The notes beneath the pieces are model-generated. The model worked only from the letters and a program-made list of their open reading frames with translations. It made no database searches and had not been told where the DNA came from. The position numbers were made by a program, and so were the translations under genes. From the NCBI GenBank assembly GCA_900316165.1, contig ONBW01000014.1:1-45146 (forward strand): a DNA stretch of 45,146 nt, written 5' to 3'. This document shows, one piece after another, positions 5,190 to 43,302 of this stretch. The DNA is from an uncultured Lachnospiraceae bacterium (GTDB taxonomy: Bacteria; Bacillota; Clostridia; Lachnospirales; Lachnospiraceae). How positions within the stretch are numbered: position 1 is the first letter of the stretch; each line of letters starts with the position of its first letter.

Positions 5190-5672
5190 TGGAATCTGTC
5201 CGTGAGAATTCCTGGAATCTGACATACAGAAAAATAATTTGCTGGGATCTGTCCGTAAAAATCCCAGGAAACTGACATACAGAATTGAAAGAATACAGTT
5301 TCTGTACGTAATAACGCCAAGGAAGTTACATACATATTTATAGCTTGCTGGAATCTGTCCGTAAGAATTCCCGGAATCTGACATACAGAATTAAAAGATT
5401 ACGGTTTCTGTCCGTAATAACGCCAAGGAAGTTACATACATTTTTTAAGCTTGCTGGAATCTGTCCGTAATAATTCCCAGCAGATGACATACAGAAAAAA
5501 GATTTGCTGGAATCTGTCCGTAAAAATCCATAACATCTGACATACAGAATTTGAAGAATATGCTTTCTGTCTGTAATAACGCCCAGCAAGTTACATACAT
5601 TTTTAAAACTTGCTGGAATCTGTCCGTAAAAACCCGCCCAGCAGATGCGATATACCACGCAATTGCTGGGCA
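5190..5672 (-). repeat. 53-bp tandem repeat array A (inverted orientation)
   Basis: The anchor CTGTCCGTAA (with variants) starts at 5196, 5249, 5302, 5355, 5408, 5461, 5514, 5567 and 5620: nine anchors at exactly 53 bp. Two unit types occur: A (GCTGGAATCTGTCCGTAA) at 5196, 5249, 5355, 5461, 5514 and 5620, and B (TTTCTGTCCGTAATAACG) at 5302, 5408 and 5567. Each unit also holds GACATACAGA or TTACATACAT about 30 bp away. The last unit decays just before the MATE stop codon. Orientation is opposite to the other three arrays. No coding is supported here. Confidence 0.9.
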
Positions 5673-5687
5673 GCGGTTATTTTTTCA

Positions 5688-7073
5688 TCAGATGACCTTA
5701 TGACGAAGCCACGCCCCGCTCATGAAGCGGTGAATATAGATGATGCCGCGGATCGTCCAGTCGGTCATCATACCGATCCAGACAGCCATCGGGCCGAACG
5801 AGAAGGCGCGGATCAGAACGGTCGCGAGCACAACCCGGCAGAGCCACATCACAAGTGTCGAAACGACCATCGTAAACTTCACATCGCCCGCCGACCTCAT
5901 GCCGTATGCCGGAACGAACGCGCAGGTCCAGACAATCGGCTTTATCACAGAAATCCAGCCAAGCATATACATGCTGAGATTCACAGCACCGGTGGACAGC
6001 CCGGAAATCAGAAGCACCGGCTTTGCCAGCAGATAAACGGCAGTACAGCTGATGATGATAAGCAACTCGGCGTAAACGGACATTTTTACAATGTAATACT
6101 TCGCCTCTTCCTTCCGGCCCGCGCCGATGGTCTGCCCGACGACAGTCATCATCGCGATACCGGTGCCGATGCCGGCAATACCGTTTAGATTTTCAAAAAT
6201 AACCGTCATCGCCTCAGCTGACATCTGAACGGCAGTAAGTGTCGAAACTGACGACTGAATCGCAAGCTTTCCGAACTGGAACATTCCGTTTTCGATGCCT
6301 GAAGGTACACCGATCATCAGGATTCGATTGATCATTTTCAGATCTGGCCTTATTGCGAAATAATTCCTGATGACTATGTCCTGCTTTGGCCTGCGCAGTG
6401 ACGCGTAGATGACCACGAAACAGAAAATCCTGGAAAACAGCGTAGAAAACGCAGCTCCAGCGACTCCCATTTTAAATCCAAAAATAAGAACTGCGTTTCC
6501 TGCGATGTTCAGGCAGTTCGAGATCAGCGAAACTGTCATCGGGTATCTGCTGTTGCCGCCGGCTCTGAAAAATGCCGAGCCAGCCTGGAACAATGCAAAA
6601 AATGGAAATGAAAATGACGTGATCAAAAAATAAGAGACAGCGTACTCCATGACCTTCGGATCAGTCTGACCGAAAATCAGATGGAGAAGCGGAACTCTGA
6701 GAGTTATGCAGAAAACTGAGATAACAAGGCTTATGGCAAGCACTGTCAGTGCGACCTGCGCAGCAGCCTTGTTTGCATTTTTTCTATCGCCCTGTCCCAA
6801 GTACTGTGAGCAGACTATAGTTCCGCCGGTTGCCAACGCTGCGAAGACCTGAATCACGAGCGTATTTATCGAGTCGGCGAGCGAAACAGCCGAAACTGCC
6901 GCATCTCCGACCCTCGCGACCATCGTCGTGTCCATCATTCCCATGAACGAGTTCAGCAGCTGCTCAATGATAAGTGGCAGCATAATGGCCCACAGTTTAT
7001 TTTTTGTAAAAAGCAGATTCCCCCAATCGATTTTTGAGCTGTCGTAAAGCTTTGATTTTATTTTTGAAATCAC
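5688..7073 (-). CDS. MATE-family multidrug/metabolite exporter
   Basis: Inner-membrane cation-coupled antiporter, 461 aa, about 12 transmembrane segments in two MatE halves. The N-half has the family pattern PLIIEQLLNSFMGMMDTTMVARVG followed by QYLGQGDRKNANKAA; the C-half repeats it around VVGQTIGAGRKEEAKYY. Translation starts at a GTG (complement of 7071-7073) with only a weak AGGA upstream, so the start is moderately sure. Substrate unknown: MATE proteins export drugs, flavins or other cations. A cre-like operator covers its transcription start, which implies LacI/CcpA-type control. The stop codon lies directly beside array A. Confidence 0.9.
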   Translation of the reverse strand: MISKIKSKLYDSSKIDWGNLLFTKNKLWAIMLPLIIEQLLNSFMGMMDTTMVARVGDAAVSAVSLADSINTLVIQVFAALATGGTIVCSQYLGQGDRKNANKAAAQVALTVLAISLVISVFCITLRVPLLHLIFGQTDPKVMEYAVSYFLITSFSFPFFALFQAGSAFFRAGGNSRYPMTVSLISNCLNIAGNAVLIFGFKMGVAGAAFSTLFSRIFCFVVIYASLRRPKQDIVIRNYFAIRPDLKMINRILMIGVPSGIENGMFQFGKLAIQSSVSTLTAVQMSAEAMTVIFENLNGIAGIGTGIAMMTVVGQTIGAGRKEEAKYYIVKMSVYAELLIIISCTAVYLLAKPVLLISGLSTGAVNLSMYMLGWISVIKPIVWTCAFVPAYGMRSAGDVKFTMVVSTLVMWLCRVVLATVLIRAFSFGPMAVWIGMMTDWTIRGIIYIHRFMSGAWLRHKVI

Positions 7074-7117
7074 AATATATATCCTATTTAAGTGCTGGTC
7101 TGATTTTTAATCAGATT

Positions 7118-7166
7118 TATGTAAACGCTTACATAACCATTATACTATGATATTCTCAAATGTCGA
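7118..7166 (-). promoter_or_regulatory. MATE gene promoter with a cre-like operator
   Basis: Minus strand TCGACA (complement of 7161-7166), 16 bp, TATAAT (complement of 7139-7144). Immediately downstream TGTAAACGCTTACA (7120-7133) fits the cre consensus TGWAANCGNTNWCA at every position and extends to an 18-bp dyad (7118-7135). A LacI-family protein or CcpA bound here would sit on the start site. Confidence 0.8.
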
Positions 7167-7201
7167 CGAACATTTTTAAAAACAATCGGTTTACATGGAT
7201 T

Positions 7202-8221
7202 TTACATCTCTTCCGGGTACTTCATGCCCCAGTCGTTGCGGCATTTTGTCATGATGTGCATCACGTCTTCGGTGGATGTCAGGTGGGTGATTGCGTCAAT
7301 TTCCGGCGAAAGTGGTGAAAGCGTGCTGCCGGAATTTTTCATAAGTGTGACCGCCTCTTCCATGTCATTTACTTCATAGAAAAGTGCGTCTGCCGTGCTT
7401 CCAAGATCGATTTCCTCTTTGTGGCCGTCATCTGTGTAGGTGATGACAGCTTTCTGGGCGCGCGGATAATCATAGATCTCCACATATCCCTTATCAAATG
7501 AAATCGTGCCACGCTTTGGCTGCTTCGCATGCAGTGATAAAATAACCGTCGCCATTTCTCCCTTCGGATTCATCAAGAGAATCGATGCCTGCTCGTCTAC
7601 TCCGGTAGGTGCGTATTTTACCTGTGAGGTAACCTGGTCCGGCGTTTCGCTCATAAACCATCTGACAAATGAAAGCGCGTAAACACCGATATCGAGCATC
7701 GCTCCGCCTGCAAGGTTTTTATTGAAAAAGCGGTTCGCCATGTTGTACTCTTTGTAGCTGCCAAAATTCATCTGGATAAGCCTCAGTTCTCCGAGCTTTC
7801 CCGACTCTATGATCTCGTTCAGCTTCTTATATATAGGCATGTGGTAAAGTGTCATCGCCTCGGCTAAGACGACATGATTCTTTTCTGCCAGATCTATTGC
7901 CTCAGCCAACTCATCTGAATTCAGTGTGATTGACTTCTCGCAGAGCACATGCTTTCCTGCATTTAAGGCCTTCCTCAGGTATTCTATATGAGTATTGTGC
8001 GGCGTGGAAATATAAACGACATCCACGTTTGGATCCTCAAAGATATCATCAGGTTTGTCGTATATTTTTTCAATGCCGTACTCCTCCGCGAACTTCTGCG
8101 CCTTCGCGTATGTCCTGTTCCCGACTGAATAAAGCTTTCCACCGTTCTTTTTCATCGCCTCCGCGAGCTCGTGCCCAATAACTCCGACACCCAGAGTCGC
8201 CCAATTATATCTAATCGCCAT
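7202..8221 (-). CDS. Gfo/Idh/MocA family NAD(P)-dependent oxidoreductase
   Basis: Soluble dehydrogenase, 339 aa. The N-terminal Rossmann fold (residues 1-125) has GVGVIG and the family CEKSITLN, where the usual EKP is EKS. The C-terminal alpha/beta domain contains GGAMLDIGVYALSFVRWF, the GG-LxDxGxY pattern of dihydrodiol/xylose dehydrogenase-like members. The substrate, probably a sugar or polyol, is not identifiable. It has its own promoter and a TSS-proximal AACCGGTT palindrome, suggesting sugar-responsive repression. It lies behind MATE in the same direction, but MATE has a separate promoter. Confidence 0.9.
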   Translation of the reverse strand: MAIRYNWATLGVGVIGHELAEAMKKNGGKLYSVGNRTYAKAQKFAEEYGIEKIYDKPDDIFEDPNVDVVYISTPHNTHIEYLRKALNAGKHVLCEKSITLNSDELAEAIDLAEKNHVVLAEAMTLYHMPIYKKLNEIIESGKLGELRLIQMNFGSYKEYNMANRFFNKNLAGGAMLDIGVYALSFVRWFMSETPDQVTSQVKYAPTGVDEQASILLMNPKGEMATVILSLHAKQPKRGTISFDKGYVEIYDYPRAQKAVITYTDDGHKEEIDLGSTADALFYEVNDMEEAVTLMKNSGSTLSPLSPEIDAITHLTSTEDVMHIMTKCRNDWGMKYPEEM

Positions 8222-8250
8222 TTTATTTTTCTCTGTTTTTTCTGAAAATC

Positions 8251-8296
8251 AACCGGTTCCGGGTTCAGTATATTCCTTAAAGCTTGAATTTGTCAA
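8251..8296 (-). promoter_or_regulatory. Promoter and AACCGGTT operator of the oxidoreductase gene
   Basis: Minus strand TTGACA (complement of 8291-8296), 18 bp, TATACT (complement of 8267-8272). The palindrome AACCGGTT (8251-8258) lies over the predicted start site, a LacI-type arrangement with a central CG. The -35 box is 14 bp from the first anchor of array B. Confidence 0.65.
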
Positions 8297-8304
8297 TGTG
8301 AGGG

Positions 8305-8893
8305 GAATTTTTACGGACAGATGCCGTCAAGCTTTAAAAATGTATGTAACTTCCTGGGCGTTATTACAGACAGAAACCTTATTCTTAAAATTCTGTATGT
8401 CAGAAGTCGGGAATTTTTACGGACAGATTCCAGCAAGTTTTAAAAATGTATGTAACTTGCTGGGCGTTATTACGGACAGAAACTGTATTCCTTTAATTCT
8501 GTATGTCAGAAGTCGGGAATTTTTACGGACAGATTCCAGCAAGTTTTAAAAATGTATGTAACTTCTTGGGCGTTATTACAGACAGAAACCATATTCTTCC
8601 AATTCTGTATGTCAGTTTCCTGGGATTTTTACGGACAGATCCCAGCAAGTTTTATATATGTATGTAACTTCTTGGGCGTTATTACAGACAGAAACCATGT
8701 TCTTCCAATTCTGTATGTCAGTTTCCTGGGATTTTTACGTACAGATTCCAGCAAATCTTTATTCTGTATGTCAACTCACAGAAATTCTTACATACAGTCC
8801 CCATATTTTTTCAAATATGTATGTTTATTTATAAGAATTTTTACGGACGGATTTTGCAATTTTCTTAATATGTCTGTAATTCGAATTAAATTT
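8305..8893 (+). repeat. 53-bp tandem repeat array B
   Basis: The anchor TTACGGACAG starts at 8311, 8364, 8417, 8470, 8523, 8576, 8629, 8682 and 8735, with degenerate copies at 8788 and 8841: eleven anchors at exactly 53 bp. Types alternate A-B-A-B, giving a 106-bp higher-order period. TGTATG follows each well-conserved anchor by 30 bp. It fills the gap between two divergent genes. From 8943 to 9118 only an A-rich leader is seen. Confidence 0.92.
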
Positions 8894-8913
8894 AAAAATA
8901 TTCAAAAAACTAG

Positions 8914-8942
8914 TTGCCATATCGTGAGGAACATGGTATAAT
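8914..8942 (+). promoter_or_regulatory. Promoter of the DUF3795/nuclease-like pair
   Basis: TTGCCA (8914-8919), 17-bp spacer, TATAAT (8937-8942), directly after array B; leader about 170 nt. Confidence 0.65.
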
Positions 8943-9118
8943 GTCGCCAACTCATTTTTCTCGAATAGCTGATTATCTCTGCAGACAATTAAATCAAGCT
9001 ATTTCAGTGGAATGAGTTGAAAGGTTGAATTCACCAGTTGCGGATTTTTTTAGTCGATAATCGAGCGAAAGAAAGGCGACAAATAATTGGAATGGTTTAA
9101 GAAAAGAGGGTAAAGCCA

Positions 9119-9508
9119 GTGAGCATGATTATTGCAGCATGTGGTAACAATTGCTCTGAATGCCCGCGATATGTGAAGCATCCTTATGAAAAAACGGAGG
9201 AAGAACTTCTCCATACTGTTGAGTTATGGATGAAAATAGGATACCGCGATCATGTTGTATCTACGGACGAAATAGCCTGTAGCGGGTGTAAGCCGGAGAA
9301 CTGGTGTAGATATCAGGTGGTGAAATGCTGTGAGGAAAGAGGGATTTCTAACTGTGCTCAGTGTCTTGACTATCCTTGTGAGCGGATGCGGGAGTGCTTT
9401 GCCGTAACAAGGTCATTTGAGCCAAAATGCAGAGAAGTGTGTACAGAGCAGGAGTTTGAACAGTTACATAAGGCATTTTTTGAAAAGGAAGAAAATTTGC
9501 AGCGATAA
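9119..9508 (+). CDS. DUF3795 family cysteine-rich protein
   Basis: 129 aa with about 14 cysteines in paired patterns (CGNNCSECP at residues 8-16, CSGCKPENWC, KCCEERGISNCAQCLDYPC). This matches the DUF3795 family, soluble proteins presumed to bind zinc or an iron-sulfur cluster; their function is not established. GTG at 9119 is chosen because an AGAGGG lies about 9 nt upstream; an ATG two codons later is the alternative. It is 29 bp upstream of the nuclease-like gene in the same direction and shares its promoter and terminator. Confidence 0.8.
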   Translation: MSMIIAACGNNCSECPRYVKHPYEKTEEELLHTVELWMKIGYRDHVVSTDEIACSGCKPENWCRYQVVKCCEERGISNCAQCLDYPCERMRECFAVTRSFEPKCREVCTEQEFEQLHKAFFEKEENLQR

Positions 9509-9537
9509 AAAACTTAACTAAAAAGAAAGGGGATCAT

Positions 9538-10326
9538 ATGACGAGGGAAGAGCTTATCTCATATCTTACATCCAGGAAGAAGTATCTCGAAACAATCATT
9601 TTGTCATGCCAGAAAAAACTCGAAAAAGCTCCGGAGGGGCACATTTTAGCATCGCGCTGTCATGGCAAAACGCAGTACTATTTTTACAATAATTACAAAG
9701 AAAAACGGACGTATCTAAGTGACATTTTGCTTGCTGGAAGGCTGATTTCCCGGGATTATCATTCTAAGCTGTTAGCTAGTGCCGAAAATGAGCTTCGGGC
9801 TATTACCAGATTTTTAGACGGTATTTCGGCAACTCCCATTGAAGAAATTTATCAACGCACACCAACTGCTAAGCGCGAACTCATTGAGCCTCTCTGCGTT
9901 GACGATGAGACTTTTGCGCAGCAGTGGGCTTCGGAGAAGTATACTGCTCTCGATATGCAAACTGGCGAAGAATATACGTCTAATGATTCCAAGCATTATA
10001 GATCTAAGTCGGAATTATTAATTGCTAATGCTTTGAATGATGCAAGTGTTCCTTTTAGATACGAATGCCAGCTGAACCTGAAAGGCTATGGCACTGTGTA
10101 CCCGGATTTCACCATTTTGAACAAGCGAACCAGGCAGATTTTCTATCACGAGCATCTTGGGATGATGGAGGACAGTGATTATGCCTATAAAAATCTTCAA
10201 AAAATAAACGCTTACCAGAAAAATGGCATAATGCAGGGCAAGCAGCTCATTCTTACCTACGAGAGTGAGAATGTACGTTTTGATTTGAATGTCATAAATA
10301 GAATAATTAAAGAGTTCTATTTGTAA
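9538..10326 (+). CDS. Conserved protein with PD-(D/E)XK nuclease-like C-terminus
   Basis: 262 aa, cytoplasmic, no signal peptide. The N-terminal 100 residues are helical and charged, probably a coiled coil. The C-terminal 110 residues read like a restriction-endonuclease fold: KSELLIANAL (conserved Glu), then YPDFTIL (the PD motif), then IFYHEHLGM (E-x-H in place of E-x-K), and a final ILTYESENVRF strand. I recognise this arrangement from uncharacterised Clostridia proteins but know no assigned role. The start ATG (9538) follows AAAGGGG. The pair 9119/9538 is bracketed by arrays B and C in the same orientation. Nuclease activity is inference. Confidence 0.6.
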   Translation: MTREELISYLTSRKKYLETIILSCQKKLEKAPEGHILASRCHGKTQYYFYNNYKEKRTYLSDILLAGRLISRDYHSKLLASAENELRAITRFLDGISATPIEEIYQRTPTAKRELIEPLCVDDETFAQQWASEKYTALDMQTGEEYTSNDSKHYRSKSELLIANALNDASVPFRYECQLNLKGYGTVYPDFTILNKRTRQIFYHEHLGMMEDSDYAYKNLQKINAYQKNGIMQGKQLILTYESENVRFDLNVINRIIKEFYL

Positions 10327-10338
10327 GGAATCACAATA

Positions 10339-10381
10339 CTCAGACTTCGTGGCTTTTCTACTGTGAAGTCTGAGTTATTTT
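10339..10381 (+). terminator. Terminator after the nuclease-like gene
   Basis: CTCAGACTTC (10339-10348) pairs with GAAGTCTGAG (10365-10374), then TTATTTTTA. An outer perfect 11-bp pair, GTAAGGAATCA (10323-10333) with TGATTCCTTAC (10384-10394), uses the first repeat anchor of array C. Confidence 0.8.
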
Positions 10382-10384
10382 TAT

Positions 10385-10838
10385 GATTCCTTACGTACAG
10401 ATTCCAGCAAGTCTTATTTATGTATGTAACTTCTTGGGCGTTATTACGGACAGAAACGATATTCTTCAAATTCTGTATGTCAGATTCCGGGAATTTTTAC
10501 GGACAGATTCCATCAAATCTTTTTTCTGTATGTCAGCGGACTGGATTTCTTACGTACAGATTCCGTCAAGTTTTAAATATGTATGTAACTTGTTGGACGT
10601 TATTACGGACAGAAACCGTATTTTTCAAATTCTGTATGTCAGTTTCCTGGAATTCTTACGTACAGATTCCAGCAAGCTTTAAAAATGTATGTAACTTGCT
10701 GAGCGTTATTACGTACAGAAACCGTATTCTTTTAATTCTGTATGTCAGTTTCCTGGAATTCTTACGTACAGATTCCAACAAGCTTCAATTCTGTATGTCA
10801 GTCGACTAGAATTCTTACGGACAGCTCCCCATAAATTA
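10385..10838 (+). repeat. 53-bp tandem repeat array C
   Basis: Anchors TTACGKACAG at 10391, 10444, 10497, 10550, 10603, 10656, 10709, 10762 and 10815, exactly 53 bp apart; type order A B A A B A B A A. Several copies carry TTACGTACAG, which makes the pairing with TCTGTATGT nearly perfect. It lies between convergent genes. Confidence 0.92.
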
Positions 10839-10840
10839 AA

Positions 10841-10869
10841 CCGGGGGCGGCGCAAAGCGCCGCCCCCGG
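10841..10869 (-). terminator. GC-rich terminator of the phosphodiester glycosidase gene
   Basis: 12-bp stem CCGGGGGCGGCG/CGCCGCCCCCGG with 5-nt loop; on the minus strand followed by TTTAATTTAT. Confidence 0.85.
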
Positions 10870-10877
10870 TTCCGTGT

Positions 10878-12089
10878 TTACTGTGCTTTCTTGATCACCA
10901 GCGCATTCGGCAGGAAACGGCCGAGGCTGCTGACACTGGAAGGCTTTGTGATCTGCTCGCCCTTGTAGATCATGATGGCGGAACTACCGCCGTCGAGGTT
11001 CATGGCCTGGTAAGCATCGTAGCGGGCGAGAACCTGCTCGCAGTCGGAAACCGTACAGCCAAGAGAATATCCGACCTGGCGGCCATCAACGATAAGCATC
11101 ATGAAGTCGCCAGAACGGCTCTGACCGATAGCGGTCCTGGGCTGAATGCCCATACCGTAAGTGCCATCGACTACATTCTGACCGTCAACGATCAGAGCAG
11201 GATAGAATTCCAACCCCCATTTATAATCAGAAGGATTGATCTGATAGTAGTTACCAACGTACATTTTGTTATCATTTTTGAGGCCGACAAATTTCCAGAA
11301 GCTGCGCTCTGGGTCGCCGGTTTCGACACCATCCATAACGCAGGCGCCTCTGATGAGGCCGCCGCTTCCATGACCGCCGGCATCGCGGAATGCGCTGGCG
11401 TTGATAACGACTTCTGCGTCGTATCTCTGGGCGTAGACACCAGCAGTTTCGCCGTGCGAGCCGATATACTGAGAGGTCTGGATAGTAACCTGGTCTATAT
11501 TTTTGACGATAGCAAGCTTCGCCACATAGCCATCGCCCTTGATACCGATGATAATCGTGTTATTTGGGACATCGACAGCAAGAACCTCATCACCTTTGGT
11601 GGTAGCAATAGAATAGCTGTTGTCGATGTTGTTTATATCGATGTTATCGTAGCCATTATTCAGATAGTAGCTGTGAGAAGCAAGAAAGTTCTTGAAGGAA
11701 GCAGAATTGAGTTCCCAGTATTTTTCGTAGAAAGATTCTTCCTCTGTTTTAGCCTTCTGAGTAGTGGTCGTATCCTTTGTGTTGTCCCAGCTGCTTTGGA
11801 GTTTCTTCTGGTAAGCCTCCTGAGCGTCACGCTCCGCCATGACTTCATCGATGATATAGTGTGGAATGAAGTAGGTGGCAAGCCACTTGTGCGAATTCGT
11901 GGTCATGGCAGTTTCTATGTAGATAGTCCGCCATTTCTTGATAAACGGGATAGGACTGAAAACAAAAAGCAGGTAGCAGGCAGCAAGTGATGCCAGAATA
12001 ACGCTTAGGGTGATCTTCAGCTTTTTGTGCTTTTTCTTTCGCTTTCTTTTATTTTTTATACGCTTGTAATTTTCTAATGAATCTGACAT
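10878..12089 (-). CDS. Membrane-anchored phosphodiester glycosidase (NAGPA) family protein
   Basis: 403 aa. A very basic N-terminus (residues 10-24, mostly Lys/Arg) precedes one transmembrane helix (about 25-46), so the bulk is outside the cell. After a helical Gln/Lys/Thr linker, the C-terminal half (about 170-400) carries NAGPA/DUF2233 features: VVINASAF, GIQPRTAIGQ, the MMLIVDGR strand, and MNLDGGSSAIMI. The family cleaves glycosyl phosphodiesters and is often tied to exopolysaccharide or wall-teichoic decoration; the actual substrate is unknown. The ATG at 12089 is the only sensible start. It is preceded by the MCP gene in the same direction, but a hairpin separates them. Confidence 0.85.
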   Translation of the reverse strand: MSDSLENYKRIKNKRKRKKKHKKLKITLSVILASLAACYLLFVFSPIPFIKKWRTIYIETAMTTNSHKWLATYFIPHYIIDEVMAERDAQEAYQKKLQSSWDNTKDTTTTQKAKTEEESFYEKYWELNSASFKNFLASHSYYLNNGYDNIDINNIDNSYSIATTKGDEVLAVDVPNNTIIIGIKGDGYVAKLAIVKNIDQVTIQTSQYIGSHGETAGVYAQRYDAEVVINASAFRDAGGHGSGGLIRGACVMDGVETGDPERSFWKFVGLKNDNKMYVGNYYQINPSDYKWGLEFYPALIVDGQNVVDGTYGMGIQPRTAIGQSRSGDFMMLIVDGRQVGYSLGCTVSDCEQVLARYDAYQAMNLDGGSSAIMIYKGEQITKPSSVSSLGRFLPNALVIKKAQ

Positions 12090-12160
12090 GGCAAAAAATG
12101 TGCTCAGGCATCAAAAAGTATGGAAGTCTGTTCAATGCCTGATTTGAAAAATAAACTGAA

Positions 12161-12193
12161 GCACCAGAGAAATCTGAAAGATTTCTCTGATGC
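12161..12193 (-). terminator. Probable terminator of the chemotaxis receptor gene
   Basis: CAGAGAAATC/GATTTCTCTG stem (12165-12174 and 12180-12189), loop TGAAA; on the minus strand followed by TTCAGTTTATTTTTC. The T-run is not immediate, so termination may be partial. Confidence 0.5.
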
Positions 12194-12257
12194 AATAATA
12201 TCAGGGTCACTTAATGACCTGCCCTACAGCTTCAGAAAATTTTCCGGAGCCAATTTC

Positions 12258-14291
12258 TTAGACATTAAAGCTGTCAACTGTACTGCTGAGATCGCTCGAC
12301 TGGTTCTTCATGCTCTCGGCAGCGGAAACAACAGTTGCGCTGCTTTCAGTCATGGCCTGGAGATTGTTGTTGATATTCTCGATGCCTTTTGACAGCTGAG
12401 CCTGGATCTCATTTATGGTAGCAATAGAATTCGTGATATTTGTGATGCTTGCGGACAGCTCTTCACTGGTGGCACCGAGCGTACCGGAAACATCGTTGTA
12501 GTAATGAGCATCCTTTGAATAAGAATCAGCTAAATCAGAGAACTTTCCGTAGTCAGGAATAACAGTAGAGTTGATGAAATTCAGGATTTCGGAACTCTTA
12601 CTGGAGAGAGCGTTAACACTAGCTAAAACCTTCTCGATGATCTCGTTTACCTGGCTGATCTGAGTATTCGTGCTGCTTGAAAGACTAGAGATCTGCTCTG
12701 CAACAACGGCAAAGCCTCTGCCGGCCTCTCCAGCACGGGCAGCTTCAATAGAAGCGTTGAGAGAAAGCAGATTGGTCTGATCAGCGATATCCTTGATGCT
12801 CTTGCTGATATTTACAATCTCATTTATGCTCTTGGCACCTTCGATAGCGGCTTCAAGCTCTTTCTGGCTGGTCTCGGTAATGCGGATTGTATTGTCCTTG
12901 CTCTGCATAAGTTCTGGGACGATGCTGTCTACTTTTTCAATGATGTCAGTAGCGTTCGTGGCCATCTCAGTAGCCTTTTCAGCCAGATCGTTAACACCGG
13001 TCTCGACCTCGCGGCACGCCTCATCGATTGACTGGATCTTTGAAGTCTGCTCGTCGATACTTGCGGCAGTCTCTTCCATCGTAGAAGAAATCTCAGTGAT
13101 CCCGCCGTTCATATCGCGGATCTGACTGCTCGTATCAGAAACGCTGCTGCCGATGCCCCTCGCTATCTGTGAAGTCTTCTTGATGGTGCCGATAAATCTG
13201 GTCTGCATCTGATCTGAGAGGTAGCTGATCTCTTCGGTCTCAGTCTTCATATGAGGCATATCGCCACCGACAACGGCCTGCCTGATGAATGCCATGAATT
13301 TTGAAACCGGTTTGAGCTCTTTGCCAACGAGGATATTCATGGTGATGATTATCAGAATTATAGAAACCGTAGCTATGATCAGGGCAAGCGCGATAAGCGT
13401 GAACACAGAAACTAAAATCTGGTTAATAGATGAGGAAACACAGAAGGTATAGCTGGAATCCTCAAGCTTGTACGTGGCAAGGAGTCTGGTGCCCTGGTCG
13501 GAAGCATAGAATCTGGCGGTCTTTCCGTTCAGCTTGCTGGTAATGCTTGAAGGAGCCTTCTGGGAATCGTCCTTCGGGACAATGACCTTACCGTTCTTGT
13601 ATTCGCAGACATAGTTGTTTTTGCTGTCAAGAAGGAAAGCATAGGCTCCGTCATTGAAATTGATGCTTTTAAGGACGGTTGTCTGCCTGCTTAGAAGGAA
13701 GTCCTCGGCGATAACTCCGGCGATCATTCCTGAACGGTAGGTAACAGGGCTTGAGATCGTGATAAGAAGGTTTCCTGTGGACGCGTCAACATAAGGATCA
13801 GAAACAGCGACGTCTTCCTTGGAATTTACCGCGTCCTTGTACCATGAGCGGTCGGTCACGACAAAATCATCAGGAAGCTTTGACTCGTTTCCTGTCATCA
13901 TAAAGACGGTATTGTCGGCATAAGCGATGTAAAGGTCGCCGATTTCCTCGTCCACATCACCGCTGTATCCGCGGATGACGGTTTTCATTTTATCCTTGTT
14001 ATAGATCAGGTCATAGGATTCCGCACTCTTCGCGATACCCTTTACAAAGGTCTTCTGGCTTTCGATAAGCGCCTCGAGCTTTGAACCGCTGTAATCCGCC
14101 TGCATCTGCAGGTTTTCCTTTATGATGGATGCTTTTGAAATGTTCGATACGCTGGTCAGGATCGTAGCCAGGACAACAATAATGACAACACTTAAAATAC
14201 TGACGGCCCTCGTCAGCTCATGCTTTATCGTGCGTGTCTTATTACCGGCTGCTTTACCCCTCGTGCTCTTTCTTTTAGTGCTTTTTGGCAT
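12258..14291 (-). CDS. Methyl-accepting chemotaxis protein
   Basis: Transmembrane chemoreceptor, 677 aa. Basic N-terminus, TM1 (about 27-48), extracellular dCache-type sensor (about 50-290; [23 protein letters not shown], [23 protein letters not shown] pattern), TM2 (about 300-325), then a long cytoplasmic signalling domain. The hairpin tip is intact ([21 protein letters not shown] then FAVVAEQI), so it should contact CheA/CheW. Ligand unknown; dCache domains of this type often bind amino acids or other small molecules. The start at 14291 is chosen (GGGGGT 8 nt upstream) over an in-frame ATG at 14357. It implies a motile host. Confidence 0.93.
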
Positions 14292-14458: not shown

Positions 14459-14600
14459 TATTTTTTCTTGGAAAAAACCTCTGGAGGCGTTTTATTTTTC
14501 TTTGAAAAATAAACGCAGTTGCAGTTTGCATGTTTCTTTGAAAAATGACAGCTATTGCAGTTTCAGCATTTCATTGAAAATAACTGTTCTGGAGGTATGA
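14459..14600 (+). repeat. Degenerate 36-bp tandem repeat with TTC-TTTGAAAAA cores
   Basis: TTCTTTGAA or TTCATTGAA cores begin at 14498, 14534 and 14570, spaced 36 bp, with a related TTCTTGGAA at 14465. Each core is a small inverted repeat, and copies share TTGCAGTTT downstream. The first full copy is also the TTATTTTTC/GAAAAATAA hairpin found at other loci. It forms most of the ridA upstream region, where no convincing promoter was seen. Confidence 0.6.
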
Positions 14601-15523: not shown

Positions 15524-15562
15524 TTACATACAGAAATGAAATTTGCTGGAATCTGTCGGTAA
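15524..15562. repeat. Solitary unit of the 53-bp repeat family
   Basis: TTACATACAGA (15524-15534) and TCTGTCGGTAA (15552-15562) form the same inverted pair as array units, with the GCTGGAATCTGTC word of array A type-A units. It sits exactly in the 55-bp gap between convergent genes, where it could serve as a hairpin terminator. Confidence 0.7.
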
Positions 15563-34995: not shown

Positions 34996-35021
34996 AAACC
35001 ACAACATAAAGGAGAACACTT

Positions 35022-37079: not shown

Positions 37080-37162
37080 TATCCCTGCAGTTCACACGAC
37101 AGGCAGACCTTTAAATGCTTAAAGCCAGTGCTGCCGCGGTCATAAGGCAGCCGGAAAAACTG

Positions 37163-37190
37163 TTGCAGAACACTGTCTTTCTGCTATAAT
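37163..37190 (+). promoter_or_regulatory. Promoter of ptsH-ptsI
   Basis: TTGCAG (37163-37168), 16 bp, TATAAT (37185-37190), about 45 nt before the HPr start. Confidence 0.65.
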
Positions 37191-37234
37191 TAGAGGCAAG
37201 AGCATTCGTAATATATAAATGGAGGAAATACACA

Positions 37235-37492
37235 ATGAAGGAATTCAAGTACACAATTACAGATCCACAGGGAATTCATGCAAGACCAGCCGGACTTTTC
37301 GTAAAGGCAGCCGCAGCATTCCCATGCAAGGTTACCATTTCAAAGGATGGCAAGGAAGCAGACGCAAAGAGAATTCTTGGAGTCATGAGCCTAGGCGTAA
37401 AGCAGGGCATGGAGATCACAGTAACCTGTGACGGAGACAAAGAGGACGAGGCAGCTGAAAGCCTCGAGAAATTCCTTAAAGAGAACCTGTAA
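37235..37492 (+). CDS. ptsH: HPr phosphocarrier protein lacking Ser46
   Basis: 85 aa. His15 in GIHARPAG accepts phosphate from Enzyme I. Aligned without gaps to Bacillus subtilis HPr, the regulatory position 46 is Arg (AKRILGVMS) rather than Ser (LKSIMGVMS). The serine needed for HPr kinase and CcpA co-repression is therefore absent; Ser52 is retained. GGAGG precedes the ATG. It lies directly before ptsI with a hairpin between them. Confidence 0.95.
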   Translation: MKEFKYTITDPQGIHARPAGLFVKAAAAFPCKVTISKDGKEADAKRILGVMSLGVKQGMEITVTCDGDKEDEAAESLEKFLKENL

Positions 37493-37501
37493 AAATGACC
37501 G

Positions 37502-37530
37502 ACCGGACGGCCCACGCCGCCCGGTTTTTG
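37502..37530 (+). terminator. Attenuator-like terminator between ptsH and ptsI
   Basis: ACCGGaCGGC pairs with GCCGcCCGGT, loop CCAC, followed by TTTTTG. It probably makes HPr transcripts more abundant than ptsI. Confidence 0.75.
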
Positions 37531-37601
37531 TGCTCTTATGGGGAAATGCGTAACGGGCAGCAGGCGCAGAATCGCAGCCCCAGAATTTGAGGAGGTACAA
37601 C

Positions 37602-39230
37602 GTGCAGAAGGAATACAGCGGAAAGCCGGTCTTTGGCGGCATTGCCATCGGGCGGATCACCATATATAGAAGGAAAGACTCAGTCGTTAAGCGTGAAAAA
37701 GTAACCGACGTCGAGGCAGAGGTGCAGAGATATCACAAGGCCAGTGACGAGGCAAAGGAGCAGCTGCAGCAGCTTCATGACAAGGCACTTAAGGAAGTCG
37801 GCGAAGCAAACGCAGCCGTATTCGAGGTACACCAGATGATGCTTGATGACCTCGATTACCAGGAGTCCGTAGAGAATATCATCCGCACTCAGAATGTAAA
37901 CGCAGAGTTCGCAGTAGCAACGACCGGCGATAATTTTTCAGAGATGTTCGCAAATATGGACGATGACTACATGCGCGGCAGGGCAGCCGACGTAAAGGAC
38001 ATCTCAAACCGAGTAGTAGGAATCCTGAGTGGCGCAGGAGCCAGCGGATTTACAGCCACGGAACCGTCGATACTTTTAGCAGATGACCTCGCACCATCAG
38101 AGACCGTGCAGCTCGACAAGTCGCTCGTGCTCTCATTTGTCACCAGATTTGGCTCGACCAATTCACACACGGCAATCCTTGCGAGAACGATGAATATCCC
38201 AGCGCTGATAGGCGTTGATTTTTCCGAGGATGATGTAGAGGGCCACATGGGAATCGTCGATGGCTACGAGGGCCGCTTCATCATAGATCCGGACGACGAG
38301 GTGCTCGCGGAGTATCAGCAGAAAAAGGCAAAGGAAGAGGAAAAACAGCGCCTCCTGCAGGAGCTCAAGGGCAAGCCGAACATCACAAAGGACGGCCACG
38401 AGATAAATGTCTATGCAAATATCGGTTCAGTAAAGGATGTCGCAGACGTGCTCGCAAACGACGCCGGCGGAATCGGACTTTTCAGAAGTGAGTTCCTGTA
38501 CTTAGGCTGCGACGATTATCCGAGCGAGGAGGACCAGTTCAAGGCCTACAAGACAGTCGCCGAGAACATGGCCGGCAAAAAGGTCGTTATCAGAACCCTC
38601 GATATTGGCGCCGACAAGCAGGTGGACTACTTCCACCTTGACCACGAGGACAACCCGGCGATGGGATTCAGAGCAATCCGAATCTGCCTGAAGAGACCGG
38701 ATATTTTTAAAACACAGCTCAGGGCCCTCTACAGAGCCAGCTTCTATGGAAACATCTCGATCATGTTCCCGATGATCATTTCGGTCGACGAAGTGCGAAA
38801 AATAAAAGAAATCATCGCAGAGGTCAAGGCTGAGCTTGATGAGGAGCAGCTTCCATATAAGGACTGCGAGATCGGCGTTATGATTGAGACACCGGCAGCC
38901 GTCTGGATGTCAGAGGAGCTCGCGAAGGAGGTTGATTTCTTCTCCATCGGAACGAACGACCTGACACAGTACACCCTCGCCTGCGACAGACAGAATCCGA
39001 ACCTCGAGGATTTTGCGGATACACATCATCCGGCAGTCCTTCGTGAGATCGAGTACACGATAAAGAACGGCCACAAGGGCGGCGCCTGGGTCGGAATCTG
39101 CGGAGAACTCGGAGCCGATACCACCCTGACCGAAACCTTCCTTAGGATGGGAGTCGATGAGCTTTCAGTATCACCGTCACGAGTTCTGTCAGTCAGAAAC
39201 GTAATCAGAAACACCGACCTGTCCAAATAA
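37602..39230 (+). CDS. ptsI: PTS Enzyme I
   Basis: 542 aa, cytoplasmic phosphoenolpyruvate-protein phosphotransferase. N-terminal HPr-binding and swivelling His domain (active His in GSTNSHTAILA), linker, and C-terminal PEP-binding barrel (DIGADKQVDY, NPAMGFRAIR, IGVMIETPAAV, FFSIGTNDLTQY, GICGELG with the catalytic Cys). Starts with GTG at 37602, 6 nt after AGGAGG; upstream in-frame TTG overlaps that site and is rejected. Phosphorylates the HPr encoded just upstream. Confidence 0.96.
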   Translation: MQKEYSGKPVFGGIAIGRITIYRRKDSVVKREKVTDVEAEVQRYHKASDEAKEQLQQLHDKALKEVGEANAAVFEVHQMMLDDLDYQESVENIIRTQNVNAEFAVATTGDNFSEMFANMDDDYMRGRAADVKDISNRVVGILSGAGASGFTATEPSILLADDLAPSETVQLDKSLVLSFVTRFGSTNSHTAILARTMNIPALIGVDFSEDDVEGHMGIVDGYEGRFIIDPDDEVLAEYQQKKAKEEEKQRLLQELKGKPNITKDGHEINVYANIGSVKDVADVLANDAGGIGLFRSEFLYLGCDDYPSEEDQFKAYKTVAENMAGKKVVIRTLDIGADKQVDYFHLDHEDNPAMGFRAIRICLKRPDIFKTQLRALYRASFYGNISIMFPMIISVDEVRKIKEIIAEVKAELDEEQLPYKDCEIGVMIETPAAVWMSEELAKEVDFFSIGTNDLTQYTLACDRQNPNLEDFADTHHPAVLREIEYTIKNGHKGGAWVGICGELGADTTLTETFLRMGVDELSVSPSRVLSVRNVIRNTDLSK

Positions 39231-39248
39231 CAAAATGTTTATTTTTTC

Positions 39249-39288
39249 AGCCGGCTGTGTTAAAATAACACAGTTGGCTTTATTATTA
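39249..39288 (+). terminator. Terminator of ptsI
   Basis: 14-bp stem AGCCGGCTGTGTTA with TAACACAGTTGGCT (two G-U pairs), loop AAA, then TTATTATT. Confidence 0.85.
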
Positions 39289-39360
39289 TGCGCAGGTCGG
39301 CACAGGTCGCGCGCGAACAGGCCGATTTTAGTCACTATTCGATATCATAGAAAGGTTTTT

Positions 39361-40560
39361 ATGGACGTTCCGTTAGAATGTACTAGCAGGATATATCAAA
39401 AAGTAGCAGCTCACCATATCAGGCATGGAAAGACTGAGCTCGCGGAGAAAATCGAGGGAGTAGACTCCCTTTTTTCCATACCCGATATTTTGGACAGAAA
39501 TGAGGTCGACAGGCCTCTGATCGTCACGGGTCCGAAGGTCTCGAAGACCACATTTTTCGAGTCGTTCATCAACGACAGGGAGACGGGCTACGTGGTCTAT
39601 CACTGGGTCAAAAATGATCCGACAGTCTCGCAGGCTGAGGAGATCGCGCAGTTCTATGACAAAAATGACTGCGACTCGATAATAGCCATCGGCGGCGGCA
39701 GCGCGATAGACGCCGCAAAAGCAGCGGCTGCCTGCCTGGCGCGCCCGGGAAAGAGCCTTCTCAAAATGCGGGGCCTTCTCCATGTAAGGCATGACACCCC
39801 GTTTTTCATAGCGGTTCCGACCACGGCAGGAACGGGCTCAGAAACCACGTCGACAGCGGTAATAATCGATAACGCAACAGGGCAGAAGTTCGGGATCAAG
39901 GATCCGCACCTGATGCCGGACGTAGCGGTTTTGGACCCGTCACTTCTCATCAGCCTTTCACCGGAGGAGACAGCTTACACCGGAATGGACGCGCTGACAC
40001 ACGCGATAGAGGCGTATCTGAACAAGCCATATCATCTCGAGGATACCGAGGAGGACTGTGAGGACGCGGTCGAGTCTATAATGGATGCACTTCCAAAGGC
40101 GTATGATGATGGCGAGGACTTACAGGCGAGAGAAGAAATGCTTATCGCCTCGTACACAGCCGGAACAGCAGTAGAAGCGAGCGGCCTTGGTAATGTGCAC
40201 GCGATTGCGCGCGCCCTCGGATCTGCCATAAACGAGCCACACGGACTCATAAACGCGGTTGCGCTTCCATATGTCCTTAAGGAATATGGCGCAGCCGTGA
40301 TGCCTGAACTCGCAAAGCTGGCATCGGTCTGTGACATCGAAAAGGATGGCACGCGAGCCGAGAGAGCAGTAGGCTTTATCAAGGCCATCGAGGACATGAA
40401 CGAGGACATGGAAATCCCGAAACATCTTCCGATAGCACAGAAGGACATCCCGAAAATCGCGGCCTGGGCGTACAAGGAAGCAAACCCATACTACCCGGTA
40501 CCGGTTATTTTTGACAGGAAGAGATTTGTAAAAATACTGAAGGCCATGTCAGAGAACTGA
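39361..40560 (+). CDS. Iron-containing alcohol dehydrogenase
   Basis: 399 aa, group III ADH, NAD(P)-dependent. Signatures: AIGGGSAIDAAKAAA (nucleotide loop), PTTAGTGSETT, and the metal ligands in AYTGMDALTHAIEAY, GLGNVHAIARALG and NEPHGLINAVALP. The start at 39361 follows GAAAGG; the in-frame extension to 39235 crosses the ptsI terminator and is rejected. Likely reduces acetaldehyde, butyraldehyde or a related aldehyde in fermentation; substrate not determinable. A large divergent loop (HLEDTEEDCEDAVES) is notable but within family variation. Confidence 0.9.
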   Translation: MDVPLECTSRIYQKVAAHHIRHGKTELAEKIEGVDSLFSIPDILDRNEVDRPLIVTGPKVSKTTFFESFINDRETGYVVYHWVKNDPTVSQAEEIAQFYDKNDCDSIIAIGGGSAIDAAKAAAACLARPGKSLLKMRGLLHVRHDTPFFIAVPTTAGTGSETTSTAVIIDNATGQKFGIKDPHLMPDVAVLDPSLLISLSPEETAYTGMDALTHAIEAYLNKPYHLEDTEEDCEDAVESIMDALPKAYDDGEDLQAREEMLIASYTAGTAVEASGLGNVHAIARALGSAINEPHGLINAVALPYVLKEYGAAVMPELAKLASVCDIEKDGTRAERAVGFIKAIEDMNEDMEIPKHLPIAQKDIPKIAAWAYKEANPYYPVPVIFDRKRFVKILKAMSEN

Positions 40561-40648
40561 AAGGCAGGTGACTAATCCATGGAATCAGGAGATCATTATC
40601 GAGCGGCATGCAGAAACCAGGTGATTTTTAGATGGAGGATAAGTCACT

Positions 40649-41590
40649 ATGCTGGATATTTACAGGACGGACGATGCTGTCATACACGAGACAGAGCGTT
40701 TTGAACCGGGCTGCTGGATAAAGCTTACCGCGCCGACGACAGACGAGTGCGAGCAGGTGGCCGGGGATTTTGATATGGATATTGTCGATGTGCGCGCCGC
40801 ACTCGATGAAGAGGAGAGCTCACGAATTTCGGTCGAGGACGGCTACACGCTGATCCTCGTAGATATACCTACGGCTGAGGAACGTAACGACCGCCACACA
40901 TACACGACCATCCCGCTCGGCATTCTGCTGCGGGACGACGTGATCATCACGGTCTGCGGCGAGGAAACCTCGGTCCTTAGGTCATTTATCGACCATCACG
41001 TCAAGGAATTTTCTACGAAAAAGCAGATGCGCTTTACGTACCAGATTCTCTACAATACGAGCATGGTCTACCAGTCGCTGCTGCGTACCATTGACAGACA
41101 GCGCACTGAAATCGAGGAAAAAGTAAGCGATGACATGGAGGATTCCGACCTGATCGACCTTCATGAGCTCGAGAGCAACCTCGTATATTTTGCGACGTCG
41201 CTGCGTGCGAATAATCTCGTTATCGACCGCCTGACTCGCTATTCGAAGATCAAGCAGTACGATGAGGACGAGGAAATTCTTGAGGATGTCATAGTCGAGA
41301 CAAAGCAGGCTATAGAGATGACTTCTATCTATCGTGACATCATAAACGGAACCCGTGAGTTGATGAGTACCGTTATCAATAACAGGCTGAACGTGGCGAT
41401 GAAGTACCTGGCTGCTGTCACAATCGTGCTCTCCGTCCCGACTATCATCGGCGGCCTATGGGGCATGAATGTCGACGCCCGCTGGATGCCGTTTTCACAT
41501 ACGCCATTCGGTTTTCTGATCCTGTGTCTTATCACGCTCGCGGCAAGCATCATAACGCTCGCGGTGCTGAAGAAGAGGAAGATGATGTGA
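40649..41590 (+). CDS. CorA-family divalent metal transporter
   Basis: 313 aa, probable magnesium channel. Long N-terminal cytoplasmic domain (1-245) with helical Glu/Asp-rich funnel, then two C-terminal membrane helices (about 248-270 and 285-305). The selectivity signature GMN is present in GGLWGMNVD between them. GGAGG lies upstream. The 88-bp gap from the alcohol dehydrogenase allows co-transcription. Its stop codon overlaps the left arm of a long palindrome. Confidence 0.92.
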   Translation: MLDIYRTDDAVIHETERFEPGCWIKLTAPTTDECEQVAGDFDMDIVDVRAALDEEESSRISVEDGYTLILVDIPTAEERNDRHTYTTIPLGILLRDDVIITVCGEETSVLRSFIDHHVKEFSTKKQMRFTYQILYNTSMVYQSLLRTIDRQRTEIEEKVSDDMEDSDLIDLHELESNLVYFATSLRANNLVIDRLTRYSKIKQYDEDEEILEDVIVETKQAIEMTSIYRDIINGTRELMSTVINNRLNVAMKYLAAVTIVLSVPTIIGGLWGMNVDARWMPFSHTPFGFLILCLITLAASIITLAVLKKRKMM

Positions 41591-41706
41591 CCTCAACCGC
41601 TTAGTGAATGCGAGCCGAAGGCGAAGCATGAGCTTAGCCGGTTGAGGTCGTCATGCGAGATTAGAATGACCGAGCGAAGCGAAGGTCAGCTCTTAGCGAG
41701 CATGAC
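41589..41706. repeat. Two abutting long imperfect palindromes (REP-like)
   Basis: First: GACCTCAACCG (41589-41599) to CGGTTGAGGTC (41639-41649), with an inner ATGC/GCAT pair around GCCGAAGGC. Second begins at the next base: GTCATGC (41650-41656) to GCATGAC (41700-41706), with inner TGACC/GGTCA around GAGCGAAGCGAA. The GCGAAGC-rich loops resemble REP/transposon-end palindromes. T-rich sequence follows, so a terminator role is possible. Confidence 0.7.
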
Positions 41707-41738
41707 TTCCTTTTAAATATTCTGGAAAAGAGGAAAAA

Positions 41739-42755
41739 ATGAAGATATTGAGCTTCTGTGTTCCGTGTTACAATTCATACACATTCATGAGAAAATGCAT
41801 CGATTCGCTGCTTCCGGGCGGGGATGATGTAGAAATAATAATTGTTGACGATGGCTCGACGGACAGAACCGGTGAGCTAGCAGATTCGTACGCGCAGGCA
41901 TATCCGAATATCGTGCGTGCCATCCACCAGGAAAACGGCGGACACGGCGAGGCAGTAAATACCGGCATCCGCGAGGCCACAGGCGTATACTTCAAGGTCG
42001 TGGACTCTGACGATTGGGTTGACAGGGATGCGTACATGAAGATTCTGGCGAAGCTTCGTGAATTTGCAAAAATGAAAGATCCGGTCGACATGCATCTGTC
42101 GAATTTTGTCTACGAGAAGCTTTCAACAGGACATGAGAGAAGAATGCTTTTATCACCGCTCTTTCCGGAGAACCAGATCATAGGCTGGGACGGCATGAAG
42201 CATAATATCAAGGGTTTCTCGATACTGATGCATTCAGTAATATACCGTACGCAGCTCTTGAGAGACTGCGGGCTTAAGCTTCCAAAGCATACATTCTATG
42301 TAGATAATCTGTATGTGTATATCCCGCTCGTTCACGTAAAGACGATTTATTATATGAACGTTGAGTTCTACCGCTACTACATCGGCCGCGAGGGCCAGTC
42401 GGTGGCCGAGCAGACGATGATAAAGAGAATCGACCAGCAGCTGCGTGTCAATTACATGATGATAGACGCGGTCGATCCGTGGCAGGTAAAGGAGCAGCAT
42501 CTGCGCAGATACCTGCTCTCTTACTTAGAGACAGTTACAGTGGTTTCGACATCGATAGGTTACCTCTCCGACAATCCGGAGAACTACAAGAAGATTGAGG
42601 ATCTCTGGCTTTATATAAAAAATCACGACATCCGGACTTACCACCAGCTGCGCTACGGCGCTCTTGGATTTGCGATGCGCTTCAAAGGCAGATTCGGCCG
42701 CAGGCTGGGAGTCTTTTTCTACCACCTGTCACAGAAGTTTATTGGGTTTAACTAG
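41739..42755 (+). CDS. Family 2 glycosyltransferase
   Basis: 338 aa, GT-A fold. N-terminal FCVPCYNSYTFMRKCIDSLL, nucleotide-sugar site VDDGSTDRTGE, NGGHGEAVNTGI, and the DxD-type metal motif in KVVDSDDWVD. The C-terminal third (about 230-338) is helical and without a clear transmembrane anchor. Likely adds a sugar to a surface polysaccharide or glycolipid. No other polysaccharide genes adjoin it, so acceptor and donor are unknown. Confidence 0.9.
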   Translation: MKILSFCVPCYNSYTFMRKCIDSLLPGGDDVEIIIVDDGSTDRTGELADSYAQAYPNIVRAIHQENGGHGEAVNTGIREATGVYFKVVDSDDWVDRDAYMKILAKLREFAKMKDPVDMHLSNFVYEKLSTGHERRMLLSPLFPENQIIGWDGMKHNIKGFSILMHSVIYRTQLLRDCGLKLPKHTFYVDNLYVYIPLVHVKTIYYMNVEFYRYYIGREGQSVAEQTMIKRIDQQLRVNYMMIDAVDPWQVKEQHLRRYLLSYLETVTVVSTSIGYLSDNPENYKKIEDLWLYIKNHDIRTYHQLRYGALGFAMRFKGRFGRRLGVFFYHLSQKFIGFN

Positions 42756-42793
42756 CTGACAGTCAGCCGGCAGAAAACCGATGCTATCCGCCA

Positions 42794-42919
42794 GCCTTGA
42801 CATGAACCTCAGGCAATGCTGTCAGGGTTTCACCCCGACGGCGACGAACTAAAGAACAGCCAGTGATTCTTGCCGTCGGGGCCTCAGAGTGTAGCATTGC
42901 CTGAGAACCATGTCAAGGC
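42794..42919. other. 126-nt structured inverted-repeat element
   Basis: Outer stem GCCTTGACATG (42794-42804) with CATGTCAAGGC (42909-42919); symmetrical AAC/AAC internal loop; CTCAGGCAATGCT (42808-42820) with AGCATTGCCTGAG (42893-42905); apical stem CCCCGACGGC (42833-42842) with GCCGTCGGGG (42872-42881) and a 29-nt loop. The loop word TAAAGAACAGCCAG recurs as TAAGAACAGCCAG near 42966. No ORF is supported. Confidence 0.8.
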
Positions 42920-42978
42920 CAAGCCCTTACTGGTGGCTTGTGGCAGCCCCCTCCAGCTCCGAATCTAAGAACAGCCAG

Positions 42979-43302
42979 CTGGTTTTACGGACAGATCCAA
43001 GCAAGTTTTAAATCTGTATGTCAAACTGTGGAAAATTTTACGGACAGATCCAGGCAAGTCTTAATTATGTATGTCAAGCGCTGGAAAATCTTACGGACAG
43101 ATTCCGGCAAGTCTTATTTATGTATGTCAAGCCGTTGAAAATCTTACGTACAGATTCCGGCAAGTCTCATTTATGTATGTAACACAACGGAAAATATTAC
43201 GGACAGATCCCAGCAAGTCTTATTTATGTATGTAACACAACGGAAAATCTTACGGATAGATTCCAGCAAATCTTATTTCAGTATGTAAATACTGTCGAAT
43301 AA
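42979..43302 (+). repeat. 53-bp tandem repeat array D
   Basis: Anchors TTACGGACAG at 42985, 43038, 43091, 43144, 43197 and 43250, exactly 53 bp apart and all type A (CAGGCAAG/CAGCAAG words). TGTATG follows the first anchor at 30 bp and is present in every unit. Confidence 0.92.

Follow-up and report, generated by a model that had tools for sequence, protein, structure and literature searches.

The window, the whole 45,146-nt stretch of contig ONBW01000014.1 from an uncultured Lachnospiraceae bacterium, carries four intergenic arrays of a 53-bp repeat and, between two of them, a gene (p1) for a protein with a PD-(D/E)XK nuclease-like C-terminal domain. The best explanation for these arrays, to which we give a probability of about 0.55, is that they are rows of binding sites for the neighbouring nuclease-like protein, maintained in a manner resembling that of the repetitive extragenic palindromic (REP) sequences and their REP-associated tyrosine transposases (RAYTs). 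Gene and arrays together suggest an undescribed kind of gene-plus-repeat system.

The initial annotation had reported an anchor, TTACGKACAG, recurring at an exact period, and all 35 anchors do lie at 53-bp steps in four arrays (9 from 5196, 11 from 8311, 9 from 10391 and 6 from 42985). The anchor is exact in 27 of the 35 and has one mismatch in the other eight (TCACGGACAG, TTACAGACAG four times, TTACATACAG, TTACGGACGG and TTACGGATAG). With up to two mismatches allowed, 31 anchor pairs stand 53 bp apart, compared with 0.00 in 100 dinucleotide-preserving shuffles. Each forward site has an opposite-strand partner that begins 29 bp later, with 24 bp more to the next forward site; one repeat thus consists of a 39-bp split palindrome and a 14-bp linker. 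Within the palindrome a 10-bp site, 19 bp and an inverted site follow one another, 39 bp end to end, and the half-sites resemble TTACNNAC. The inverted pairing proposed earlier is thus real; the proposed separation of about 2.5 helix turns describes only the mean of the true offsets, 29 and 24 bp. Most window units start with TTAC and finish with GTAA or GTCA. The commonest sites are TTACGGACAGA (25/126) and TGACATACAGA (22/126), forward and inverted sites not being identical. When nine arrays were cut in register into 63 units, their alignment of 63 columns showed no variation at columns 3, 4 and 11 within the forward site, 32 and 36 within the inverted one, or 56 and 57 within the next forward one; this alignment is free of gaps partly because the units were cut in register.

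Sites and spacing are conserved while the linkers diverge. Across 12 arrays of the same genome (87 units, 75 steps), minimum-spanning-tree sums, which are an estimate rather than a lower bound, give about 616 substitutions in 31 linker columns versus 94 in 22 site columns, with the sites in register throughout. These arrays were set in fixed register, their start and unit number chosen from site scans, and the end units include degenerate ones; neither isolated single units nor sites past register breaks (for example at the edge of the C37 array) are among the 87. That register was kept over so many estimated linker substitutions bears out the earlier view that sequence within units drifts at constant spacing, and supports selection on spacing over recent duplication. 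The further claim that slippage never occurs holds inside the window but not elsewhere: the edge of the C37 array has 23 bp in place of 24, on contig C49 of the same genome two units of different half-site type (L017:1672-1760) stand at a 50-bp step, which is off phasing, a 53-bp array of the congener G200 contains one 52-bp and one 43-bp step, and an array of G309 contains one 52-bp step. The 43-bp step (L100:3157-3200) is about one helix turn shorter than 53 bp.

At 10.5 bp per turn, the regular periods deviate from whole helix turns by at most about 0.2 turn, which is not so for the 50-bp step on C49. The original proposal that 53 bp places the units about five turns apart gains support from the periods of 52, 53 and 62-63 bp and the steps of 43 and 72 bp, all near whole turns; the fit is poorer for a 65-bp period and for the single 50-bp step. 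Periods near whole turns are suggestive of helical phasing of the units, without amounting to proof.

The window belongs to genome G000 (2.59 Mb, 117 contigs, 91% complete), and searches of this genome and its relatives reveal more arrays of the window type (family 1) on its other contigs. A model of the window units has at least 101 matches in G000 (both strands, overlapping; 150 of 1,893 candidates scored), five in G200 and none in the remaining 11 members of the genus; over 120 genomes of the family Lachnospiraceae it matches only G000 (E up to 1e-4). With strict patterns, G000 is likewise the sole genome matched, whether 200 genomes of the family or 13 of the genus are scanned; the genome_contigs scan, which may omit this species, gives no match. 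A single-unit pattern has 62 forward matches in G000, two in G200 and one in G206; its control has one, in G204. One single unit lies in the gap between luxS-like and pfs-like ORFs (open reading frames), near the second start (L023:1704-1742); here and below, gene names are read by eye from translations, except for DUF3795 and the partner gene. A 12.9-kb locus of a Lachnospiraceae metagenome-assembled genome, with a 78% identical oxidoreductase, holds no array.

The same genome contains a second family of arrays, found on contig C48 beside a copy of the hairpin element that precedes array 4 (the companion element, see below). Its unit is TTCCGTACCA, 19 bp and TGGTACGGAA; the gap was 19 bp in 16 of 16 matches though 10-30 bp were allowed, and the period is exactly 63 bp.

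Related arrays span several genera. A relaxed pattern, TTNCGTAC ... GTACGNAA at 39 bp, matches five of 397 family genomes (G309, 53 matches; G000, 21; G200, 2; G188 and G194, 1 each), as many genomes as its reversed control. The pattern TTACNNAC, 22-23 bp, GTNNGTAA, 14-26 bp, TTACNNAC matches nine of the 397 and its reversed control four: G000 (26+25 matches), G200 (53+55), G309 (40+42), G137 (9+5), G404 (1+2), and G180, G364, G031 and G287 with one each. On inspection, regular arrays are present in G137 at 63 bp and in the congener G200 at 52 bp; G404 has arrays with a period of 62-63 bp and units of 39-40 bp, and G309 has a 53-bp array and a shorter one at 64-65 bp, so that the periods are 52 bp in the congener and 53 and 62-65 bp in other genera (array places in G200 and G309 being only those among the matches listed). 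The shorter G309 array (L254:10084-10390) is built of 39-bp units with half-sites like TTACCTTCC/GGTAGGTAA at a 64-65-bp period. In G287, several units follow at steps of 115, 124 and 125 bp (L289:3554-3956), with TTACCTAC half-sites arranged otherwise. Among exact TTACNNAC inverted pairs, searched at total lengths of 28-51 bp, 12 of 12 in 178,422 sampled bases of G309 measure 39 bp and 18 of 18 in 620,786 bases of G200 measure 38 or 39 bp, and the same unit length recurs with other half-sites in family 2, G309, G200, G137 and G404. In G137, each arm keeps its own middle bases, which differ between the arms.

A phage or plasmid origin of the arrays was considered and rejected: the array patterns have zero matches in IMG/VR, and array 4 with its companion element has no match in phages or plasmids. 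For family-1 arrays the viral zeros are weak, because the strict two-unit pattern recovers just one place even in this window. A relaxed half-site pattern gives 68 viral matches versus 56 with the gap one longer, and we therefore regard those matches as chance.

The gene p1 lies between family-1 arrays, with array 2 at a distance of 658 bp, the DUF3795 ORF intervening, and array 3 at 64 bp. Its paralog p2 on C48, 60% identical, lies between two family-2 arrays (333 and 256 bp away), with the companion element on one side, such that each of the two paralogs adjoins its own half-site family. A tblastn search of the fetched loci with p1 and p2 yielded p3, in G404, between two arrays 19 and 47 bp away. 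The gene p5 of G309 has a 12-unit, 53-bp array 60 bp upstream, mostly of CTACGTAC half-sites, and p6 of G200 has arrays on both sides, of TTTCAATATAG at 51, 52 and 72 bp. These TTTCAATATAG arrays occupy L330:6970-7810 and 8822-9560, and the strand switches part-way. Hence five of six homologs adjoin arrays, the site differing from one gene to the next; the arrays stand on both sides in p1, p2, G404 and G200 and on one side in G309, and gene and arrays occur together in four genomes. The homologs were reached by different routes: p1, p2 and p3 come from stretches fetched for their arrays, the p5 contig was chosen for an array 56 kb away, p6 turned up when 20 contigs, picked without regard to arrays, were searched over at most their first 20 kb, and p4 comes from a protein search of a phage collection. 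Arrays with a 45-80-bp period are rare, as judged with Tandem Repeats Finder (at least 2.5 copies, score 150): 610,809 sampled bases of G200 contain seven such loci, of which two adjoin the partner gene, and 178,422 bases of G309 contain four, of which one does. By a rough count, a random gene would adjoin such an array in about 2-5% of cases. Homologs of the partner protein are absent from IMG/VR. The phage collection holds three unverified fecal clones with homologs, one full-length (p4) and two partial, and in plasmids the matches (7 and 9 records) fall for the most part in the nuclease-like domain, in most cases that of an AAA ATPase.

No Pfam, NCBIfam or PHROG model matches the partner proteins convincingly (best E 0.011; Pfam on p1-p5, NCBIfam and PHROGs on p1-p3), and p1 has no Pfam match at E up to 1. 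PADLOC, run on p1-p3, gave matches for these proteins. Their C-terminal part matches PDC-S68 (E 1.4e-25 for p1 and 8.6e-23 for the G404 protein), and that of p1 also matches HEAT_CxxC_PDDEXK (E 9.4e-7). The motifs RSKSE, YPDF and EHxGM are invariant in five of five aligned members and recur in p6; residues E159, D190, E205 and H206 are invariant in the same five. The start codon of the G309 protein is provisional. Identity between p1 and p2 is 51% in the N-terminal 140 residues and 70% in the C-terminal 122, a difference that fits an N-terminal reader of different half-sites, and the N-terminal domain likely does read the half-site.

In the mechanism that we infer, for binding, cutting, mobility and domain roles alike, an array would be a row of binding sites for the adjacent nuclease-like protein or a close paralog. 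Each unit, with its two inverted TTACNNAC-like half-sites and outer ends 38-40 bp apart, would be bound as a symmetric pair. Linkers of about 14 or 24 bp would set the units near-whole helix turns apart and, because of this spacing, the bound dimers would face alike and contact each other. Reading the half-site would fall to the N-terminal domain and cutting to the C-terminal PD-(D/E)XK-like domain; a nick or cut at the units, followed by repair, would lead to tandem duplication and to seeding at other intergenic places. Gene and arrays would then be maintained in much the way that RAYT transposases and REP repeats are. On the sequence evidence, the protein probably binds the units, and a platform for cooperative protein binding, as first suggested, remains the most convincing interpretation of the sites. 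More tentative is the proposal that the units spread by nuclease action and repair, to which we would give slightly less than an even chance.

The nearest described parallel is the REPtron. As set out in the excerpts of two papers (PMC3733652, PMC3116915), REPs and REPINs are extragenic inverted repeats, dispersed singly or in tandem clusters of fixed spacing, whose RAYT gene is flanked by its own repeats, and some genomes hold several gene-repeat pairs. To the extent of those excerpts, the arrays described here share the dispersed single and tandem inverted repeats, the gene flanked by its own arrays and the several gene-repeat pairs. They differ in the partner, which is PD-(D/E)XK-like instead of a Y1/HUH transposase; in the window units, which lack a GTAG or CGTC tag, although the gene-side G309 array does end in GTAG; and in the repeat itself, which consists of two TTACNNAC-like half-sites spanning 38-40 bp end to end with no covariation between arms, where a REP is a hairpin, again as those excerpts describe it. 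Because a Y1/HUH gene and the tag are absent in the window, we do not file the system as a REPtron; a REP/RAYT-like system built on an unrelated nuclease fold seems the best reading by analogy.

A RAYT or IS200/IS605 partner was also considered and rejected, the Y1_Tnp matches in the window's own genome (C112, C15:49282 and two overlapping on C81) having no arrays directly beside them. An ORF separates the C15 copy from an array about 1.1 kb away. The Y1 regions of C112 and C81 (3.1 and 3.7 kb read) hold no array and one lone weak site each, and their neighbours are TnpB-like.

Several observations weigh against the arrays being binding sites for a cutting partner protein. Half-sites do not always keep to the core: many units of the window family have TGAC on the opposite strand, family 2 has TTCC, one G309 array has CTAC, and the arrays by the G200 gene use TTTCAATATAG, not TTACNNAC. 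Around the homolog p4, on fecal contig MT839528.1, 3,047 upstream and 376 downstream bases contain only scattered GTTGC/GCAAC motifs and no array of this kind, the contig ending 376 bp past the gene. Among the three homologs found by protein alone, two adjoin arrays (G309 and G200) and p4 does not, and the flanks fetched around other arrays, beyond these loci, contain no homolog. As to the protein, the lysine of (D/E)xK is not seen, EH standing in its place; it could therefore be an inactive nuclease that only binds. Its single-sequence fold (predicted local distance difference test score, pLDDT, 40.6) is too poor for use, and a search for solved relatives found none.

The strongest rival, which we nonetheless consider unlikely, holds that the arrays are bound by a host protein with a role in organising or insulating the nucleoid, or in regulating neighbouring genes, the nuclease-like gene being just a frequent neighbour. 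The arrays do stand in convergent, divergent and co-directional gaps among many kinds of gene (by the ORF lists), their sites and spacing are conserved, and the phasing would suit cooperative binding. A core nucleoid site, however, would not be expected to vary in sequence and period from species to species and even between two families of a single genome, nor to be missing, by the model, from 11 of 12 other genus members, and the presence of gene and array together in four genomes also speaks against this explanation.

Somewhat less probable still is a defence system, in which the nuclease would attack foreign DNA and the host arrays would act as decoys, self-marks or regulators. The nuclease-like domain is nearest the C-terminus of the candidate defence proteins PDC-S68, and this domain is what the partner protein shares with them. 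However, the match is limited to that domain: the PDC-S68 models exceed 1,200 positions and carry it at their end, whereas the partner protein has 262 residues and another N-terminal domain. The ORF lists by the arrays show no other defence gene, although no systematic scan was made, and the arrays are scattered over the chromosome, away from the gene.

Transcribed arrays forming chains of RNA hairpins, as terminators, stabilisers or sponges, are improbable. The arms are inverted repeats, and some units stand just past stop codons or ahead of a terminator-like hairpin (C49, C114 and window position 15524), but the arms do not covary: 80.5% of cells are paired versus 80.2% after shuffling, and both-side changes number 1 versus 1.7. 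For this reason the units more closely resemble sites on DNA than hairpins in RNA. The different middle bases kept by the G137 arms point the same way, as does Rfam, whose only match in the window at gathering score is a tRNA-Val, with no match to the arrays; the arrays thus fall in no Rfam family. Of the earlier interpretation, spacing selection, phasing and a protein platform retain support, while the chain of RNA hairpins lacks support, as does DNA packaging, for which nothing was found and the array patterns have no viral match. Least probable of all are ordinary minisatellites keeping their length by chance and copied by slippage or unequal crossing-over: units alternate between types A and B with a 106-bp higher order in arrays 1-3, indicating past tandem duplication, but sites are far better conserved than linkers, register survives the linker substitutions and the unit length recurs with other half-sites in other genera.

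Other repeats resemble the arrays in part. Bacterial interspersed mosaic elements (BIMEs) of enterobacteria are intergenic, tandemly reiterated and alternate in orientation; the arrays share these traits and differ in their unrelated sequence, a period near whole turns and another partner gene. Clustered regularly interspaced short palindromic repeat (CRISPR) arrays join a repeat and a variable part at regular spacing, whereas the interiors and linkers of the present arrays are common to units instead of being unique spacers, the unit is a split palindrome, and the window has no Rfam CRISPR repeat match. BOX elements of streptococci are probably unrelated in sequence. They are modular, with tandem middle modules and different end elements (PMC3049150, in excerpt), which companion element and array resemble; the excerpt names no dedicated gene for BOX, and the companion stands by only some of the arrays.

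The companion element immediately precedes array 4 (Table 1) and folds into a strong hairpin (-97.3 kcal/mol, z -5.28). A CCCCGACGGC/GCCGTCGGGG core and a GAACAG motif are kept in three copies, which adjoin arrays of both families; the companion is possibly an end module of arrays. Array 4 itself lies between glycosyltransferase-like and enoyl-CoA hydratase-like ORFs and is followed by an ORF of 148 aa. The same neighbours in G200 (CorA-like, 90% identical; glycosyltransferase, 86%; hydratase, 90%) enclose a partner-gene homolog with its arrays instead; nothing at this syntenic locus matches the 148-aa ORF. It follows that these congeners differ by the exchange, gain or loss of gene-array sets at a single locus. 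The ORF right after array 4 (window 43408-43854) and one at L012:1841-2218 look alike by eye (NGxYxGDDDxGxLxADF). The DUF3795 ORF near p1 is a possible passenger. Separate from the 53-bp arrays, a 36-bp tandem repeat of 2.3 copies occupies window positions 14497-14580.

Table 1. Positions of the arrays and associated features in the window.
Feature	Position	Strand	Context
Array 1, family 1, 53 bp	5196..5629	-	between hsp20-like ORF (+) and MATE-like ORF (-), names by eye
Array 2, family 1, 53 bp	8311..8879	+	upstream of ORFs 9119-9508 and 9538-10326
DUF3795 ORF, 129 aa	9119..9508	+	PF12675, E 2.2e-13; between array 2 and nuclease-like gene
Partner gene p1, 262 aa	9538..10326	+	unassigned N-terminal domain; PD-(D/E)XK-like C-terminal domain (about residues 147-259)
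Array 3, family 1, 53 bp	10391..10824	+	64 bp past partner-gene stop
Isolated single unit	15524..15562	+	between two convergent ORFs
Companion element, strong hairpin	42756..42984	+	copies by arrays on C22 and C48; 28-nt piece by one in G200
Array 4, family 1, 53 bp	42985..43288	+	syntenic gap in G200 holds partner-gene homolog and other arrays

Among the matches listed in a search of the open-licence literature, no paper treats such arrays or the gene-array pair. On balance we favour a new class of element, seen so far in one bacterial family, probably the Lachnospiraceae, in which a restriction-fold nuclease-like protein would read split palindromes and build or maintain helically phased arrays over the whole chromosome, half-site and period co-diverging with the protein. 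If this is true, it would account for regular intergenic arrays for which no annotation or paper was found. The REP/RAYT design would then have originated twice, in this case on an unrelated nuclease fold and under the new rule of helix-turn spacing, and these bacteria would offer natural protein-site pairs differing in half-site and period, in which recognition, cooperativity and the spread of repeats would be open to direct test.

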